From: Deltaproteobacteria bacterium
Lineage (GTDB): Bacteria; Desulfobacterota; WTBG01; CAIYCZ01; CAIRTM01
Direction: 5' to 3'
DNA length: 37,737 bases
Assembly: GCA_024276465.1 (NCBI GenBank)
Contig: JAJRXD010000044.1
Location: forward strand, 1-37,737
Positions 381 to 14,379 of the stretch are shown here, in pieces. The stretch's first letter is position 1. Each line of letters opens with the position of its first letter. The notes under the pieces are model-generated. The model was not told the DNA's origin. It saw only the letters and a list, made by a program, of their open reading frames with translations, and made no database searches. The position numbers and the translations under genes were made by a program.

Positions 381-465
381 GTCATTGCGAGGGAGGCACG
401 ACAGAAGCAATCTCCTGGAAACAAAGAGATTGCTTCGTCGTTCGTTCCTCACTCCTCGCAATGAC
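381..465. repeat. Dispersed inverted-repeat element in the fumC leader
   Basis: An imperfect palindrome of about 85 bases is bounded by GTCATTGCGAG (381-391) and its exact complement CTCGCAATGAC (455-465), with inner arms AAGCAATCTC and GAGATTGCTT. Sequences of this kind are widespread REP/MITE-like elements in bacterial genomes. Transcribed, it would fold into one long hairpin. An ATG at 461 inside the right arm is in frame with fumC but is a by-product of the repeat, not the gene start. Confidence 0.75.
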
Positions 466-520
466 AACCCGGAATCAGGACTTTTCGTTCAGGCACTACT
501 TAAAAAAATCAGGAAATTTT

Positions 521-1912
521 ATGAAATATAGAATTGAATATGACAGTATAGGCAAAGTAAAGGTACCTTCTGACAAGTATTATGGTGCACAAACCCAAAG
601 GTCTTTTCAGAACTTTAAAATCGGCAAAGAAAAAATACCTGATGAAATTATCAGGGCATTTGCTTTTATAAAAAAAGCTGCTGCTATTACCAATTATGAT
701 CTTGGACTTTTGCAGAAAAAGAAAAAAAATTTAATTATCCTGGTTTGCGATGAAATACTTGAAGGGAAATTAAATGACCACTTTCCATTGGCAGTCTGGC
801 AATCCGGTTCAGGGACGCACACAAACATGAATGTAAATGAAGTTGTTTCAAACAGAGCTATTGAGATAGCAGGTGGAAAATTAGGATCAAAGGACCCTGT
901 TCACCCAAATGATGATGTAAACAAATCTCAGAGTTCTAATGATGCTTTTCCCACAGCAATGTCAATTTCTGCAGTAATTTCAATAGAAGACAGGTTGCTG
1001 CCGGCTCTGAAAAATCTGAAGCATGCATTAGCAAAAAAATCTGAAGAATTTAAACTGCTGATTAAAATCGGCAGAACACATTTAATGGATGCTGTGCCCC
1101 TCACTCTTGGCCAGGAATTTTCCGGATATGTAAGCCAGCTTGAACACGGCATCAGGGCAGTTAAAAATTCATTGCGCCATCTGAGAGAGATAGCCCTGGG
1201 CGGTTCGGCAGTAGGAACAGGGCTTAACACCAAAAAAGGTTATGCTGAAAAGGTTGCTGCCGTGATTTCAGAATTAACCTGCCACAAGTTTGTAACTGCA
1301 CCGAATAAATTTGAAGCACTTGCTGCCCATGATGATATTGTTGAATCTTCAGGTGCTGTAAAAACAGTTGCAGTGTCTTTAATGAAAATTGCAAATGACA
1401 TAAGATGGCTTGCTTCCGGCCCAATATGCGGCATAGGCGAAATCACTATTCCTGCAAATGAGCCTGGCTCTTCCATAATGCCTGGCAAAACAAATCCAAC
1501 ACAATCAGAAGCCATGACAATGGTATGCACACAGGTAATAGGAAATGATACCACCATTAATATGGCCGGCTCTTCAGGGAACTTTGAACTGAATGTTTTT
1601 AAGCCGGTTATGATATATAATCTGCTGCAATCAATAAACAATTTAGCTGATGCTGCTGAGTCGTTTAATATCAATATGGTTGCCGGAATAGAGCCAAATC
1701 AGGATAAAATAGAATACCATCTTTCTAACTCTCTGATGCTGGCAGCTGCTCTTAATCCGGTTATAGGGTATGATAATGCAGCTAAAATAGCAAAAAAGGC
1801 TCTCCTGGACAACAGCACCCTGAAGGAAGCTGCTGTTAAGCTTGGACTGTTAACATCTGAGAAATTTGACGAAATAGTAAAACCTGAAAAGATGATCAGG
1901 CCGGAAGAGTGA
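521..1912 (+). CDS. fumC: Fumarate hydratase, class II (fumarase C)
   Basis: Interconverts fumarate and (S)-malate in the cytoplasm. The 463-residue length is typical of oxygen-stable, iron-independent class II fumarases. Seen in the sequence: [13 protein letters not shown] near residue 100, [10 protein letters not shown] near 140, and the superfamily signature [11 protein letters not shown] at 316-326, which carries the catalytic serine loop. The start at 521 is chosen because AGGA sits about six bases upstream and [13 protein letters not shown] matches the usual N-terminus. The in-frame ATG at 461 lies inside a dispersed repeat. The gene converges on the aldolase gene with about 50 bases between them. 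With SdhABC and malate dehydrogenase it completes the succinate to oxaloacetate segment. Aspartase is a relative, but the GSGT and SS-loop residues favour fumarase. Confidence 0.95.
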
Positions 1913-7411: not shown

Positions 7412-7720
7412 CTACTTAAGCAACCACTGGAAACAGACAAAAACATAAACTATAATCCCAAGAGCGGAAAATCCCCAGAAAAGCTCCTTTTCTTTTTTCA
7501 CGCCAAGATCAACAAGGCATGTCCTCAGCCCGTAAAGACTGTGATAAATGAAAAGAAAAATGACAACCATATCCACATACAGGTTGCTGTGAAGCCCGGT
7601 CCAGTAGGGAACCACATCTTCTCCCATGGCTCCTGCAACTCCGAATCCACTGTACATCTTAAACCCGATAAGCAAAATCAGAACCAAACCGCTGATCCGG
7701 TGAAACACCCACACAAACAT
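7412..7720 (-). CDS. sdhC: Succinate dehydrogenase / fumarate reductase membrane anchor (cytochrome b556-like)
   Basis: A 102-residue protein with three hydrophobic helices (about 9-25, 48-66, 82-100). It carries family hallmarks: HRISGL at 7-12 and YHSLYGLRTCLVDLG at 59-73, with H44 and H60 as candidate haem ligands. It is the only membrane subunit in the operon and is short. Either a partner anchor is encoded elsewhere or this is a minimal anchor. The start at 7720 follows AGGG with about seven bases spacing. It is the first gene of the minus-strand operon, just downstream of a possible promoter. Confidence 0.85.
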   Translation of the reverse strand: MFVWVFHRISGLVLILLIGFKMYSGFGVAGAMGEDVVPYWTGLHSNLYVDMVVIFLFIYHSLYGLRTCLVDLGVKKEKELFWGFSALGIIVYVFVCFQWLLK

Positions 7721-7767
7721 ATTTAAGCCCTCCGGATATTCATAAAATAAGAAATTAAAAATATGTG

Positions 7768-7796
7768 ATATTAATAAAAAAAGGATTGAATTGCAA
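7768..7796 (-). promoter_or_regulatory. Possible promoter of the sdhCAB-Rieske-cytochrome b operon
   Basis: Reading the minus strand, TTGCAA (7796-7791) is followed after 17 bases by TAATAT (7773-7768), about 48 bases before the sdhC start. The surrounding sequence is AT-rich, so a chance match is possible. Confidence 0.3.
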
Positions 7797-7836
7797 GATC
7801 TTTGTGGAAATCTGCCATTATGTTCATGACAAATCT

Positions 7837-8050
7837 TTAAGACATGTTTTTCTCATATAAATCTCTCAGCAGTTCATTTCCCTGCAGATATTCAAAAGTG
7901 ATGTCCTGTATTAAGCTCCTTGTGTTATGATCATCCTTGAATTCAATCCAATGCAGTTTTCATACAATCAGTCACCCATTTTAAATAATACGGAATCTGT
8001 TTTGAATTTATGTGACACTGCTTCTTTAAAAAATGTTTAAATTTCTCCAT
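7837..8050 (-). pseudogene. Decayed reading frames, N-terminal part integrase-like
   Basis: A minus-strand ATG at 8050 has a good ribosome site (GAGGAG, nine bases upstream). It encodes 35 residues, including KQIPYYLKWVTDC, before a TGA at 7943-7945. This resembles the N-terminal core-binding part of integron/phage tyrosine recombinases. A second frame, shifted by one base, continues from about 7944 to a TAA at 7837 with SLIQDITFEYLQGNELLRDL, which I do not recognise. The good ribosome site and short broken frames suggest a gene relic. The integrase reading is tentative. Confidence 0.4.
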
Positions 8051-8384
8051 AAATAATCACTCCTCATACTTATACAAAATCTATATAAGGTACCTTTTAT
8101 ATGCTTATTATAGAAAACATCTGCTGTTTTTCTTTTAATTTGCCATTGATTCCTCAAAATTTCAACTGAATAAAATGGCCCTGTTGCTAATTATATTATT
8201 TAATCTTATGACAATTGCAAATATTTTAACTTGTTTAAATAATTAATTATATGTTATTTTAATTATATTGACATATTTTCAAAAAATTGTAAGCAGGAAA
8301 ATAACAACAAGAGTTTATCTAATGTATGAGTTATGTATGTATAAACAAACATCATGAATATAGATAGAACGCGGAGCCTATAAA
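8051..8384. other. AT-rich intergenic stretch
   Basis: Very AT-rich sequence with no reading frame of note. It marks the left border of the accessory island. It probably holds the promoter for the reading frame at 8385, but several TATAAT-like matches occur and none stands out. Confidence 0.4.
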
Positions 8385-8618
8385 ATGCATGAAAGAACCC
8401 TTCTCGCATCAGTTGTATTGTTCAAGGAACTGTATGACAGCGACAAAGACATTTATGATGTAATTGCAGAGTTTATAAAGGCTGCCATGATCTTTGAAAA
8501 TAAGTGGGCCTTTAACACAACGGATGCGACCCAGCTTCTTTCAAGTGGTTTTGGTTTAACCATAGCTGGGGGTTTTTCTCCCCCACCCATCCCTTACACG
8601 AAACCCTTCAATAGATAA
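8385..8618 (+). pseudogene. Truncated N-terminal domain of an unrecognised protein, first gene of the helicase module
   Basis: The 77-residue frame has a ribosome site (CGGAG about nine bases before the ATG). The first 60 residues look like a real, mostly helical domain (LASVVLFKELYDSDKDIY, then FIKAAMIFENKWAFNTTDAT). After GFGLTI the sequence turns into AGGFSPPPIPYTKPFNR, which is encoded by a GGGGG/CCCCC hairpin and does not look like continuing protein. I infer that a longer gene lost its 3' part. It ends 12 bases before the helicase start, so it was probably the first cistron of the module. Function not known; a winged-helix-like regulator is only a guess. Confidence 0.5.
8567..8585. repeat. 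G/C-run hairpin at the truncation point
   Basis: TGGGGG (8567-8572) and CCCCCA (8580-8585) form a six-base stem around a T-rich loop. It lies exactly where the upstream reading frame stops looking like protein, so it may mark a deletion or insertion scar. It has no following T-run and is unlikely to be a terminator. Confidence 0.45.
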
Positions 8619-8630
8619 TGTACCAGACCT

Positions 8631-10916
8631 ATGAACACTGAGTTTTGTAACGATAAAGTTCCTTTCTCAACTGGAGATTGGGTGATTGACAAAAACAATC
8701 CTGGGCAGCCGGGTCAATATACCGGGAATTGTCGTTATGCTGGGCCTCACATAATGCTTCAGTTGTCTTTTCCTGGTGGAAACTCCACTTATCGTCCGCT
8801 TAACTGCCTGGAATCCATGCAGCAAACTTTCACAGAAACAATAGAAGATCGTTTAAGGAAAGGACATTTCGGGAAAATCAAGGACCTGCAAAGGCTTATT
8901 ACTTATGAAAAACTCAAGGGCGTTCTCCATGAAGTTATATATTCAATGGAGGCTGCTCAGATTGATTTCTACCCGTACCAGTTTAAACCCGTTCTCAAGT
9001 TCATCAATTCACCCACCGAACGACTTATCATAGCTGATGAGGTCGGTCTCGGTAAAACGATTGAATCCGCACTTATTTGGATTGAATTGCAGGCCAGACG
9101 ACAGGCAAAAAGGTTGCTCGTAGTTTGTCCGAAAATTCTAGCTGACAAATGGCGTGATGAATTACGGACTAAATTTCTTATCGATGCTAGAATTGTTGAT
9201 TTTTCCGATTTTAAAAAAGAAATCAACTACCTCACGGACGAAGGGCCAGAGCACTCCTTTGCATTAATCGCCACTTATACTGGCCTCCGTCCCCCAAAAG
9301 CCGAACTTCGGTTTCTTGATGAAGAACCTGATGATCAGACACAAAGCTCTCCAAAGACGAATCTTTTGCGGGAATTGCGCCATTGGACACAGGGCTTTGA
9401 TCCCATAGATCTCGTAATATTCGATGAGGCACACTATATGCGAAATCCGGCAACTACAACATTTCATCTCGGGGAAAGCCTTGCTGAAATTGCCGGCGCG
9501 GTACTATGTGTATCAGCAACGCCTGTAAATAACAGCAATGTTGATTTGCATAGTTTGTTACGCCTGACCGATGAAAGTTTTTTTGAGACACAGGGGATGT
9601 TTGAGGAACTTTTGGAAGTCAACCGGCCCACGGTTCAGGCCGGAAATGCATTATCCCAAACCCCTTTGGACAGATCGCTGCTGGAATTGGCAGTAGAGGG
9701 AATGAGCTCAAGTCCCTTCATCAAAAAATCTCCCTTATTTAAACAATTTTTGGAAAAACTGGAAAATTTGAATCCTGCTGATAAGGTACAACTTGCCAAA
9801 TGCCAAGACCTTGCAGAAAAACTGAATCTATTGGGCAGCTATGTCAATCGTACACGCCGGGTTCAGGTAAAAGAAAACAGACCGCTTCGTGATCCAATGG
9901 TTTTGCCTGTGGTTTACTCTAAAGAAGAAATGCAACTATATCAGAGCATTCTTCAGATTGTCCGTGCCAGGTGCCGCAAAGACAATCGGCCTTTCCATAT
10001 CTTTCAGATTCTTGGACTTCAACTCAGGGCTTCGAGCTGTCTGCCTGCGCTGGTTAAAGAAATACGTGATGGTCGGTTGGGGAATCCTGAAGATCTCTTT
10101 TGCGAAGCCATGGGCGAAGAGATATCTGACGGTTTGGATGGCAATAGCCCGGGAGATGAAATGAGCGGGATGGACTTCGAAAGGCTACTCGATTATGACT
10201 TTGAAAAGAATGACAGTAAGTATGCACAGTTGAGACGGATGTTGATGGAACTTGTTCCAAAGGAAAAGGCCGTCATTTTTGCATATTATCGTCCAACTCT
10301 TGCATATCTGAAACGTCGCCTTACAGAAGAGGGAATCACTGTAACTGTGATTCACGGAGGTATCCCAAATGAACATCGATGGGAAGAAATCGAACGCTTT
10401 GGAAATCCGAGAGGACCTCGTATTCTTCTTTCCTCCGAGGTGGGTAGCGAAGGCATTGACTTACAGTTCTGCCGGGTAATGGTAAATTATGACTTGCCAT
10501 GGAATCCAATGCGTGTTGAGCAGCGCATTGGACGTATTGACCGTGTGGGTCAAAAAGCGGATAGACTTTCCATTGTTAACTTCAAGGTACGCAATACCAT
10601 TGAAGAACGGCTTTACGATAGGCTTCACGCCAAACTCGAACATTTTGCTAATAGTTTGGGAGATCTTGAGGCGGTGATCGGAAATGAAATACAACATCTT
10701 ACAATTGAGTTGCTGAGCAAAGAATTGACATCCCAGCAAGAAAACCAACTTATGGAACAATCCGAGTTAGTAATTGAGGGGCGACTGCTTCAAATTCAGT
10801 CATTAGAAGAATCAGGCGATGCACTTATCGCACTTTCAGACTATGTGCAGCGTAAAATTGAGGAAGATCGAGAAAAGGCCGCTACCTTCAACCCGAGGAA
10901 CTTGAGGATTACTTGA
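8631..10916 (+). CDS. SNF2/RapA-type superfamily 2 helicase, N-terminal 5/6 of a frameshifted gene
   Basis: A 761-residue ATP-dependent DNA translocase or remodeller. Motifs in order: Q-like YPYQFKPV (114-121), Walker A DEVGLGKT (136-143), Walker B DEAH (265-268), motif III SATP (295-298), helicase C domain from about 540, and the arginine-finger motif QRIGRIDRVGQ (about 631-641). The last residues (AATFNPRNLRIT) do not fit. The -1 frame over the same bases reads GRYLQPEELEDYL and continues smoothly into the next reading frame. So this is most simply one gene of about 1,045 residues broken by loss of one A in GAAAAGG (10872-10878). SNF2 proteins of this type occur in restriction, DISARM-like and other defence loci. 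The ribosome site is weak. Confidence 0.85.
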   Translation: MNTEFCNDKVPFSTGDWVIDKNNPGQPGQYTGNCRYAGPHIMLQLSFPGGNSTYRPLNCLESMQQTFTETIEDRLRKGHFGKIKDLQRLITYEKLKGVLHEVIYSMEAAQIDFYPYQFKPVLKFINSPTERLIIADEVGLGKTIESALIWIELQARRQAKRLLVVCPKILADKWRDELRTKFLIDARIVDFSDFKKEINYLTDEGPEHSFALIATYTGLRPPKAELRFLDEEPDDQTQSSPKTNLLRELRHWTQGFDPIDLVIFDEAHYMRNPATTTFHLGESLAEIAGAVLCVSATPVNNSNVDLHSLLRLTDESFFETQGMFEELLEVNRPTVQAGNALSQTPLDRSLLELAVEGMSSSPFIKKSPLFKQFLEKLENLNPADKVQLAKCQDLAEKLNLLGSYVNRTRRVQVKENRPLRDPMVLPVVYSKEEMQLYQSILQIVRARCRKDNRPFHIFQILGLQLRASSCLPALVKEIRDGRLGNPEDLFCEAMGEEISDGLDGNSPGDEMSGMDFERLLDYDFEKNDSKYAQLRRMLMELVPKEKAVIFAYYRPTLAYLKRRLTEEGITVTVIHGGIPNEHRWEEIERFGNPRGPRILLSSEVGSEGIDLQFCRVMVNYDLPWNPMRVEQRIGRIDRVGQKADRLSIVNFKVRNTIEERLYDRLHAKLEHFANSLGDLEAVIGNEIQHLTIELLSKELTSQQENQLMEQSELVIEGRLLQIQSLEESGDALIALSDYVQRKIEEDREKAATFNPRNLRIT

Positions 10917-11776
10917 CAGACTTTTTCGATCGGGAATTTCAAGGCTGCGAACTCAATCACAATACACCGGTTGACGGATGCCTTATGATCCGCCTGAATA
11001 GTGAGGCACATTTTTCACTTTCCAACTTTATTAATGACGATAGGTCTCTCAGCGCACGTCCCTTTCGACAAAAAGAATTTAATATAACTTTCAAACGTGA
11101 AGTTCGCCAGCGACTCCCTTTGAACCAACAAAGATATGTCCATTTCATCAATCACCTTTCTCCTCTTATCCGCTGGATCACAAAAACCAACAAAGATAGA
11201 GCACACAGTTTTTTTGATGTGTCAGCGATTCGTATCGAACATCCTTCACTGCCTCCCGGAGATTATTGTTTCCGTATTGAACGATGGAAACTGCGAGGAC
11301 TTTCAAACCGTGAAATGCTTGCATATGGCATAGGGAATTTATTGGAAGGTTCAATTTACCCCGAAGATAAATCCGAGGTGATTTTTCAGCACCTTTTGCG
11401 TAAAGGAAAGGATTGGGATTACGTAGATTGTGACAAAGCGGCTCTACTTCGTACTCACAGTGTCTTGGAAAAGGATTTAGCTGAGCGTTTTAATACAGCC
11501 GTGAGCGATTTCGAAGCAGAAAACGAAACAGCCTATCAGATCAAGATGCAGAGAGTTAGAAGTATGTTTAACCGTCGCATTAAACAGGACGAACAGCGCA
11601 TTCGCACTTTGCGAGAGTCAGGGCGTAATATCCGAATGATTCGTCCGGCTGAGGGGCGACTTCAAGCAGGTATCAAGAACAAAGAACAGCGACTCCGTGA
11701 ATTGGGAGAGAAGGCCAAAATTGATATGGAACAAGCACAAGTGGCAGCAGGACTATTCCGTATTACAAATATTTAG
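10913..11776 (+). CDS. C-terminal domain of the frameshifted SNF2-type helicase
   Basis: The 287-residue frame starts nominally at TTG 10913, overlapping the upstream stop, but it is open back to about 10862 without a start codon. It begins EELEDYLTDFFDREFQGCEL, has a beta-rich middle (FNITFKREVRQRLP, GDYCFRIERWKL) and ends in a long charged coiled coil (QDEQRIRTLRESGRNIRMI, KNKEQRLRELGEKAKID). Such a coiled-coil tail is typical at the end of RapA/SNF2-like helicases, which supports its being the missing C-terminus rather than a separate gene. Alternatives are translational coupling at TTGA or -1 frameshifting on the A-run. The Hsp70-like gene follows 22 bases later. Confidence 0.75.
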   Translation: MTDFFDREFQGCELNHNTPVDGCLMIRLNSEAHFSLSNFINDDRSLSARPFRQKEFNITFKREVRQRLPLNQQRYVHFINHLSPLIRWITKTNKDRAHSFFDVSAIRIEHPSLPPGDYCFRIERWKLRGLSNREMLAYGIGNLLEGSIYPEDKSEVIFQHLLRKGKDWDYVDCDKAALLRTHSVLEKDLAERFNTAVSDFEAENETAYQIKMQRVRSMFNRRIKQDEQRIRTLRESGRNIRMIRPAEGRLQAGIKNKEQRLRELGEKAKIDMEQAQVAAGLFRITNI

Positions 11777-11798
11777 TGTGAGAAGGGAGTAAGCCCTT

Positions 11799-13268
11799 AT
11801 GAGCGCCCCATGGAAATTGTTTCGGAATTTGAAGAAAAAATTATTTGGCAAAACACCTCCTAAACCGGATGCAATACCAAAAACACCTTCTGCACCACCA
11901 AAAACAACCCCTCAAATTACAGATTCAAGTCCGTCCCTTCAGGAAAGAAAAGATCCATATTTTATTCAGATCGGTTTTGATTTTGGCACCTCTTATTCAA
12001 AGTGTATTTGCCGCGATGTTATGACAAACAAAGCATGGGTTTACATTGATCCACAGTCTCAAGAGCAGGAGCTGCCATTTCTAATTCCAAGCGCTTTGGC
12101 TATGGGAAACAATAAAATATTTCACATTCAGGATTCTAATATTCACTATCCTGAAAACGGTTTATATCATCTGAAAACCGCTCTGGTGCTGGCAGCAAAC
12201 AGGCAATTGTCCAATCCTTCGCTTGTTGCATACCGCAATGCAATCAAGCAAAACGATGCTAACAGGTTATCCGAATTCGTTGCGGGGTGCGGTGTGTATT
12301 TTTTGGCAGGCGTACTTGGTCAAGTTCGCGATCAGATTCGGGAACGTTTTCCAGGCTTTGGGTCTCTCCCGAAAGACTACATGGCGATAAATCTGGCAAT
12401 CCCTGTTGAAGATGCTCAACATCCAGAAATAAACAAACTTTACAGTCGAATAATTAGTGATGCCTGGGAATTCGCTGATCAACTCTCCGGGCACCCACCA
12501 GTTTCTCTGGCAGATTTGCAATCTCTAAGAAGGAAAAATATCACTACCAATGGACCCTGCTTTATTTATCCTGAAGTAAGCGCAAATGTTCAAGGCTTTG
12601 TTCGTTCTCGTGCTTCAAGTCCAGGCATCTACCTGTTGTCCGATACAGGAGGAAGTACAGTGGATCAGAGTGTTTTCATTTTTATGCGCCAAAACAATGA
12701 AGAGCATTTGACCTACCTTGCAGGTAGAGTGTTACCTCTTGGATCAAGCAGGATCGAGTGCCGAGCAGCAGAAAAATGCGGGAAGACAGATTGCATGTTT
12801 CTTGAGGATTTGAGGGAGAAAAAGGAAAGAGGAGAAGACGTTTCTGAATTGAGAGAAGCAAAATACTGGATCTCCAAAGAACTGAACTTGGAGACTGAAT
12901 GCACGATCGCTTTATCTAAAGGTAAGCTTTTTAGAAAGGAACAATTAAATAGTATTAAGGTCATCTTTGGGGGAGGTGGGTATTGCAAATACCCATACAA
13001 AACTGCCGTGATGAAACCCTTTTCCGGACAGCTTTTTAGCGAGGCTTTACATCCTGATGTTATTGGTATGCCGGTTCCCAGTGATTTAGAGCTCAAAGGC
13101 CACGAAGCTAAATGGATGCGGCGGCTTAATGTGGCTTATGGATTATCTTTCGAGAAAAATGAACTTGTGCCATTTACCTATCCCAGCGATGTGAGCGATC
13201 CAAAACCTGATGAAATTTCACGGCCACTTAAGCCAACTAATCATGCTCCAACCAAGGATGAATGTTAA
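11799..13268 (+). CDS. Hsp70/actin-fold (ASKHA) ATPase associated with the helicase
   Basis: The 489-residue protein has the three nucleotide-binding motifs of the Hsp70/actin superfamily: phosphate-1 IGFDFGTSYSK (58-68), phosphate-2 DTGGST (282-287) and adenosine FGGGG (390-394). A conserved RRLNVAYGL lies near the end. It has no Hsp70-type C-terminal peptide-binding domain. The first 15 residues form a basic amphipathic stretch (WKLFRNLKKKLFGK), followed by a proline/threonine-rich linker to about residue 50, so the ATPase may be tethered. A strong ribosome site (AAGGGAG) precedes the ATG. It is the last gene of the module and lies 22 bases after the helicase C-terminal part. Role unknown; coupling with a helicase suggests defence or DNA maintenance. 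Confidence 0.75.
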   Translation: MSAPWKLFRNLKKKLFGKTPPKPDAIPKTPSAPPKTTPQITDSSPSLQERKDPYFIQIGFDFGTSYSKCICRDVMTNKAWVYIDPQSQEQELPFLIPSALAMGNNKIFHIQDSNIHYPENGLYHLKTALVLAANRQLSNPSLVAYRNAIKQNDANRLSEFVAGCGVYFLAGVLGQVRDQIRERFPGFGSLPKDYMAINLAIPVEDAQHPEINKLYSRIISDAWEFADQLSGHPPVSLADLQSLRRKNITTNGPCFIYPEVSANVQGFVRSRASSPGIYLLSDTGGSTVDQSVFIFMRQNNEEHLTYLAGRVLPLGSSRIECRAAEKCGKTDCMFLEDLREKKERGEDVSELREAKYWISKELNLETECTIALSKGKLFRKEQLNSIKVIFGGGGYCKYPYKTAVMKPFSGQLFSEALHPDVIGMPVPSDLELKGHEAKWMRRLNVAYGLSFEKNELVPFTYPSDVSDPKPDEISRPLKPTNHAPTKDEC

Positions 13269-13287
13269 AAACTCAGTAGTGTCCCAA

Positions 13288-13303
13288 CGTTTTTTAAAAA
13301 ACG
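13288..13303. repeat. Perfect 16-base palindrome after the Hsp70-like gene
   Basis: CGTTTTTTAAAAAACG is a perfect palindrome 20 bases after the stop codon. It could act as a weak bidirectional terminator or a protein-binding site, but it is not GC-rich. The rest of the gap to the malate dehydrogenase gene holds only a 25-codon frame (from 13332) that I cannot assign. Confidence 0.4.
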
Positions 13304-13452
13304 CAAAAACGGTTTAAATATTACGGCAGAAATGGTGTCACATCTTGACGGGTTGTTGCCCAAAAGCCTGCTCAAGTTGCAATTTGATCTGACAGAGACA
13401 ACTTTATAAATAATTTCCAAATATTTTCTTCGGGGATTTTGAATGGTTTTTT

Positions 13453-14379
13453 TTAGATCTGCATAACCTTTGTCACCTTCCTGACAGCATCCGCTGATTT
13501 TTTAAGTGCCGATGCCTCATCAGGGGTTAACTTTATCTCCATTATCTGCTCAATGCCGTTTTTGCCTAATTTGACAGGCACCCCTACCACAGCTCCATCA
13601 ATACCATACTCACCTTCAAGCAGGGTTGCGCAGGGCAGTATCTTTTTCCTGTCCAGAATTATTGCATCTACCATTTGTGCCACTGCAATGCCAGGCGCAT
13701 AAAATGCGCTGCCGGTTTTCAGCAGGGCTACTATCTCGGCCCCGCCATTCACAGTGCGACTAACAAGACTGTCAATTTTTTCTTTTGGGAGAAGCTCTGA
13801 AACAGGAATGCCGCCAACAGTACAAAGCCGTGTAACAGGAACCATTGTATCGCCGTGGCCTCCCAGAACGCAGGCAAACACATCCTCAACCGAGACATCA
13901 AGCTCCCGGGCTATAAAAGTTCGAAACCTGGCACTGTCCAGGACACCTGACTGCCCAAAGACCCTGAACCTTGAAAACCTGCTCACATGGAGCGCCATCT
14001 GCGTCATGGCATCAAGGGGATTGCATACAACAATTATGATACATTCAGGTGAATAGCGGACAACATTCTGCGTTACCTCCCGCACTATCTTCATGTTGGT
14101 AAGAACCAGATCATCACGGCTCATGCCGGGTTTTCTTGGAATACCGGATGTTATTACAACAATATCAGACTCTGCTGTATCTTCATAGGAGTTCGTCCCA
14201 ATAATTCTGGCATCCGAACTGATGATGGGGGCAGCTTCAAGCATGTCAAGCCCCTTGCCCTGGGGAAGCCCGTCAACAATATCTACCAGTACAACATCAG
14301 CATAGCCTTTGCCGGCAATCCCGAAAGCACATGTTGCACCAACATTCCCGGCGCCGATTACAGAAACTTTGCTTCGCAT
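13453..14379 (-). CDS. mdh: Malate dehydrogenase (LDH-like type)
   Basis: Oxidises malate to oxaloacetate with NAD+. The protein is 308 residues from the chosen start. The nucleotide-binding motif is [10 protein letters not shown] at the N-terminus, the mobile-loop segment [11 protein letters not shown] carries the arginines that select malate over lactate, and the catalytic histidine lies in GGHGDTM. The start at 14379 is preferred because CGGAG lies seven bases before it; the in-frame ATG at 14400 has no ribosome site and abuts a repeat element. A 226-base repeat separates it from the acyl-CoA ligase gene, so it may have its own promoter. It converges on the helicase module. Confidence 0.94.

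Follow-up and report, generated by a model that had tools for sequence, protein, structure and literature searches.

A SNF2/RapA-type helicase gene and a gene for an Hsp70-like ATPase, found side by side in a Deltaproteobacteria draft genome of 181 contigs, form an apparently obligate pair that recurs across bacteria and whose linkage to defence is well supported. The locus lies in a 37,737-nucleotide stretch of one contig, hereafter the window, and its features are collected in Table 1. On balance, and with moderate confidence, we favour the reading that the pair is a mobile accessory two-gene module for DNA-targeting defence, in which the Hsp70-like ATPase would be the nucleotide-controlled subunit of a SNF2 translocase.

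Table 1. Features of the helicase–Hsp70-like locus and its surroundings in the window
Feature	Position	Strand	Basis or remark
FumC-type gene	461-1912		identified by eye; some but not all relatives have homologues
Possible tyrosine-recombinase N-terminal relic, with stops	7821-8055	-	translation read by eye
77-aa ORF left over from an unrelated gene of ~690 aa (its first ~60 codons)	8385-8618	+	40% identity over residues 3-60 to a 690-aa protein in L037
SNF2/RapA-type helicase gene (DrmD-like)	8631-11776	+	one gene of ~1,046 codons, split into two ORFs
Walker A motif DEVGLGKT	9036-9059	+	nearly all motif residues invariant in helicase alignment
DEAH box of helicase	9423-9434	+	motif reading; helicase alignment
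Helicase motif VI QRIGRIDRVGQ	10521-10553	+	motif reading; helicase alignment
Frameshift site, AAAAGG run with one base fewer than in relatives	10870-10880 (near 10,873-10,878)	+	pairwise alignments with L017, L020 and L029
Hsp70-like ATPase gene, 489 aa, intact, nucleotide-binding domain only	11799-13268	+	AlphaFold model; Hsp70-fold PDB matches
Phosphate-1 motif IGFDFGT	11970-11990	+	D61, G63 and T64 invariant among relatives; aligns with DnaK IGIDLGT
Phosphate-2 motif DTGGSTVD	12642-12665	+	relatives' alignment; DnaK alignment
Adenosine motif FGGGG	12966-12980	+	relatives' alignment; DnaK alignment
C-terminal tail KDEC, last four residues	13254-13265	+	KD[E/Q/D/V]C in most close relatives

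The pairing, which a first-pass annotation had proposed from the window, proved real and recurrent. Counting loci with both genes present, with duplicate contigs removed and the window included, the helicase and Hsp70-like genes are adjacent on the same strand in 24 of 24 distinct loci. Fifteen loci came from the genome scan with an Hsp70-like alignment, and whole-genome and plasmid searches added more. Every searched Hsp70-like relative with intact upstream DNA adjoins the same helicase, the two genes usually overlapping or lying at most 43 bases apart (gaps mostly -8 to +43 bases), with the reverse gene order only in Leptolyngbya. Homologues lying mostly apart from each other, or belonging to a housekeeping pathway, were not seen. 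In a phylum sample of 395 genomes the Hsp70-like gene is patchy (8/395), and all six genomes with the C-terminal part of the helicase, the window's own included, also carry the Hsp70-like gene. Pairwise distances of the two proteins are strongly correlated over 22 loci (Mantel r = 0.97, with 0 of 2000 permutations as high), and the correlation is 0.88 in the close set; the most distant partners, from Aminobacter and Sphingobium, are related by profile E-values only (~1e-25 and ~1e-18).

The records span at least eight phyla, under the labels Desulfobacterota/Deltaproteobacteria, Planctomycetota, Acidobacteriota, Hydrogenedentota, Nitrospirota, Verrucomicrobiota, Cyanobacteriota and Alphaproteobacteria, and the pair occurs on several plasmids. 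Two loci, L018 and L019, apparently represent the same contig in genomes labelled Chloroflexi and Deltaproteobacteria from one lake project, so that one of the two genomes was probably binned wrongly. Exceptions to the adjacency have visible causes: in G214, IS21-type transposase genes lie ahead of an Hsp70-like gene truncated at its 5' end and no helicase is present, and only terminal fragments remain in G093. In G140 (L015/L027), the Hsp70-like gene is split by an IS630-type transposase-like gene on the opposite strand. Carriage of the pair by phages is unsupported by our searches: the Hsp70-like protein had no match in phage records or viral contigs, and the C-terminal part of the helicase was unmatched in viral contigs. 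Among virome sequences, three helicases at ~30% identity lack an Hsp70-like gene in the sequence available, and the sole complete one, at 1,207 aa, looks HmaA-sized rather than like a member of the pair's clade.

In the window, both genes lie on the forward strand between succinate dehydrogenase (sdh)/cytochrome genes and mdh, which are on the opposite strand, with AT-rich DNA at the left border (GC ~0.32 at 7,501-8,500); the AT-rich border and central-metabolism surroundings originally described are thus confirmed. The pair is missing from all family relatives examined. Two relatives of the same family have ~1.1-1.2 kb between sdhC and mdh, encoding the alpha subunit of class I fumarase, and the window's island (7720-13453) occupies this same interval. 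Since class I fumarase (PF05681) is present in 8/8 family relatives and absent from the window's genome, which carries a FumC-type gene, the data suggest a gene replacement at the insertion site, with the island in the place of the class I fumarase gene and the FumC-type gene present instead.

The helicase belongs to the SNF2 ATPase superfamily by its SNF2 and Helicase_C domains, with Walker A, DEAH box and motif VI. The first-pass annotation was right in calling a SNF2-type helicase gene (E = 5e-179), but the gene is not a single open frame in the window. An ORF of 761 aa (8631-10916) is followed by one of 287 aa in another frame (10913-11776). The first matches residues 2-741 of the 1040-residue PADLOC model PDLC02623 (E 5.1e-179) and the second residues 749-1011 of the same model (E 4.1e-17), and the helicase of intact relatives is a single ORF of ~1,006-1,087 aa. 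The 287-aa ORF was therefore rejected as an independent gene and assigned to the helicase as its 3' third. With the gene taken as one unit, the originally reported arrangement of three same-strand genes with gaps of 12 and 22 bases holds. The coding signature remains strong in the 3' part of the helicase, with codon-position identities of 0.76/0.83/0.40 against L017, and the frameshift is therefore either recent or an assembly error. Programmed -1 frameshifting is unlikely, as the relatives are in frame and no standard slippery heptamer was seen by reading. The window copy is damaged, as the first-pass annotation held, and probably non-functional, barring an assembly error or a bypass of the shift. 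The structure model of the helicase is modest (pLDDT 70.6, pTM 0.42). RapA is its best PDB match by sequence profile (3.5e-37) and the top structural match of the predicted model along nearly the full length (2.3e-27).

The partner gene is intact, and its likeness to Hsp70 is clear from the fold search but barely visible in sequence. The window's protein matched nothing in the Pfam, NCBIfam and PADLOC families searched, four members of the family tested against Pfam (including PF00012) were unmatched at E <= 0.01-1, and a PDB sequence search with the family profile was empty. The AlphaFold model is confident (pLDDT 82.9), and its best PDB matches are DnaK/Hsp70 nucleotide-binding domains (E ~1e-10), with structural alignments at Z 25-27 over ~310-330 residues and an rmsd of 3.2-3.9; in VIA-align, among the matches listed, all are Hsp70-family. 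At the sequence level the relationship is faint: a profile built from the family scores DnaK at E 0.036, and hhalign against the genome's own DnaK gives E = 0.0015, with the phosphate-1, lysine and phosphate-2 motifs (IGFDFGT, LYHLK and DTGGSTVD) in register. The catalytic glutamate could be E259 or a residue one or two positions away. Only ~33 low-confidence residues follow the ATPase domain, ending in KDEC, in agreement with the initial description of an ATPase without a substrate domain. As judged from the model, the protein has the Hsp70 ATPase-domain fold and is not an Hsp70 chaperone, because the substrate-binding domain and lid are absent.

The third proposed component, the ORF at 8385, does not belong to the unit. 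Upstream of the pair, relatives carry genes for HsdR, BrxA, an LmuB-like protein, a restriction enzyme, a reverse transcriptase and others; because a homologue of the ORF precedes the helicase in no relative, it is not a module part and is the remnant of a different island gene. A Pfam search with the 77-aa product was unmatched. Its 690-aa homologue lies in another genome of the phylum, 2 kb from a GajA gene (Gabija). This 690-aa family (L037:5401-7470) has a conserved N-terminal helical domain, a coiled coil and a membrane-like C-terminus, and PADLOC has no model for it.

The loci fall mostly in defence islands, with enrichment judged by eye from the listed neighbours. Defence genes beside the pair were assigned by profile or annotation, and those at L018, L024 and L027, which are type I restriction–modification (R-M) genes, by similarity to these. 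HsdR also neighbours the pair at L029 and L031. At L024 the order is HsdM-HsdS-[pair]-HsdR, with a similar arrangement at L031. BREX genes are represented at L012/L022 (PglXI, Ppl, PglZ and BrxA), a BsuBI/PstI-type R-M system at L017 (an N6-methylase and a BsuBI/PstI enzyme), and DISARM genes at G282 (DrmA and DrmB a few kb away, with NERD-UvrD and a C5 methylase). Further neighbours are a UG19 reverse transcriptase (L020), an Eco57I/DrmMI-like methylase and an LmuB-like gene (L021), a methylase (L030), CRISPR I-D (L057), and Hachiman, AbiEii and restriction genes (L073). At L025, the gene for HmaA of the Hma system is distinct from the pair and lies 1.7 kb downstream of it. No clear defence gene was found in the flanking sequence examined at L023, L026, L028, L070 and the window.

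Three loci have unusual surroundings. On Sphingobium plasmids (L074:13930-17977) two genes with weak similarity to ZacA and ZacB of Azaca come after the pair, which may make this a four-gene variant. In an Akkermansia-labelled genome (L032:3056-5437), the pair comes after a UvrD-like gene and a gene for another Hsp70-domain protein, which carries a TPR repeat. At L071:1-2681, kinase, PP2C-like and vWA genes resembling, by eye, a TerY-type triad lie ~6 kb from the pair.

From the pairing, co-inheritance, folds, motifs and neighbourhoods, which are direct observations on the pair, we infer a physical complex, DNA translocation, the direction of help and the role of the ATPase. The first gene would encode a RapA-type SNF2 dsDNA translocase. 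The second would supply an Hsp70-fold ATPase cut down to the nucleotide-binding domain, produced together with the helicase and probably part of one complex with it. Since the pair has no recognisable nuclease and lies beside type I R-M, BREX and DISARM-like genes, systems that distinguish foreign from modified DNA, the motor most likely travels on foreign DNA, remodelling proteins there or stripping them off; its targets could be phage proteins, transcription complexes or the restriction complex. Such stripping would help the neighbouring defence system, and the Hsp70-like subunit could act as a nucleotide-dependent switch for assembly or release.

The main rival to this accessory reading is that the two genes act by themselves against phages or plasmids and only happen to cluster with other systems in islands; such a stand-alone system could, for instance, block phage transcription or replication by RapA-like remodelling. 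The partner system varies from locus to locus and the pair is the sole constant, so a stand-alone role is possible; at L023, L028 and L072, moreover, no classical nuclease system adjoining the pair was seen in the sequence examined. However, no nuclease or known toxic effector is recognisable in the two genes, and at several loci, L024 and L031 among them, the pair is embedded in or abuts R-M genes. We regard a stand-alone system as a possible but rather unlikely explanation.

Another reading takes the helicase as a DISARM DrmD that is divergent and has an additional subunit, and the window copy as the leftover of a decayed DISARM locus. The helicase does resemble DrmD (PADLOC PDLC02623; NCBIfam NF038317) in SNF2 helicase length and order and in island context, PDLC02623 matches it end to end, and G282 has the DISARM genes described above. 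Against this, its scores of 322-469 bits (321.9 for the window, 342-469 for intact relatives) do not reach the NCBIfam DrmD equivalog cut-off of 610. No DrmA-DrmB(-DrmC) core was found in the window flanks, and near the pair DrmA and DrmB were recognised only at G282 among the loci examined. DUF1998 (MZB) matches in pair-bearing genomes lie, where their position could be told, on other contigs or far off, the only one in the window's genome being on another contig (C16). The pair differs from DISARM in its constant partner, an Hsp70-like ATPase, and in the DISARM core genes being unseen at most loci. Because those core genes are absent and the cut-off is unreached, the pair is, by these tests, not a DISARM member, though PDLC02623 would label it so, and descent from a decayed DISARM locus appears improbable. 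All helicases examined that have PDLC02623 as their best match pair with an Hsp70-like gene, and DISARM calls resting on this helicase alone may therefore be wrong. This branch of defence SNF2 helicases, which pipelines annotate as DrmD, has a partner that appears to be obligate.

A housekeeping or plasmid-maintenance unit unrelated to defence, for example in RNA-polymerase recycling or DNA repair, would fit the RapA similarity and the several plasmid occurrences, yet it is very improbable given the very patchy distribution, the absence from all same-family relatives examined and the mostly defence-related neighbours.

Under the favoured accessory reading, other known systems share parts of the pair. 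RapA, the SNF2 ATPase that recycles RNA polymerase, is close in profile and fold, but the pair's helicase scores about 145-177 bits against a RapA equivalog cut-off of 576 and differs in being patchy, island-borne and paired with an Hsp70-like protein. BrxHI/BrxHII of BREX and HmaA of Hma are related SNF2 helicases, to which the pair's helicase scores far lower than to PDLC02623; PglZ and PglX/BrxX of BREX are not in the window flanks and were found only at the L012/L022 relative.

On the Hsp70 side, our literature searches on Hsp70, SNF2 and phage defence yielded little beyond the CoCoNuT papers. CnuD proteins are Hsp70-like ATPases of CoCoNuT, McrBC systems, with nucleotide- and substrate-binding domains (PMC11090510). 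They are alike in being Hsp70-like ATPases in restriction-type defence, but the pair has the nucleotide-binding domain only and a SNF2 partner; no McrB-type GTPase or McrC-type partner was seen in the window flanks or, in PADLOC scans, among the neighbours. Two Hsp70-like members weakly match the phosphate-2 region of the PADLOC candidate PDC-M61B (E 9e-6 and 4e-4) over ~40-60 residues only, and the other members tested were unmatched; no publication describing PDC-M61B was found. A 2025 YprA paper (PMC12458937) does not mention Hsp70. We found no published name for the pair in PMC, and a named system may exist in literature beyond the reach of that search, such as subscription papers and bioRxiv.

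Eukaryotic SWI/SNF and INO80 join a SNF2 motor to actin-related-protein modules, nucleotide-binding subunits of the actin/Hsp70 superfamily. Tentatively, and as one doubtful extension of the accessory reading, the pair may be an undescribed motor-plus-ASKHA machine, a SNF2 translocase with an obligate regulatory stand-alone Hsp70 ATPase domain, which would be a functional counterpart of these chromatin-remodeller modules and a plug-in for many DNA-targeting immune systems, hidden under the DISARM label. If the partner controls the motor, the pair would place a bacterial SNF2 ATPase under an Hsp70/actin-fold nucleotide switch. The comparison is one of analogy only: both combine a SNF2 motor with a nucleotide-binding subunit, which is of the actin family in the eukaryotic modules and of the Hsp70 family in the pair.
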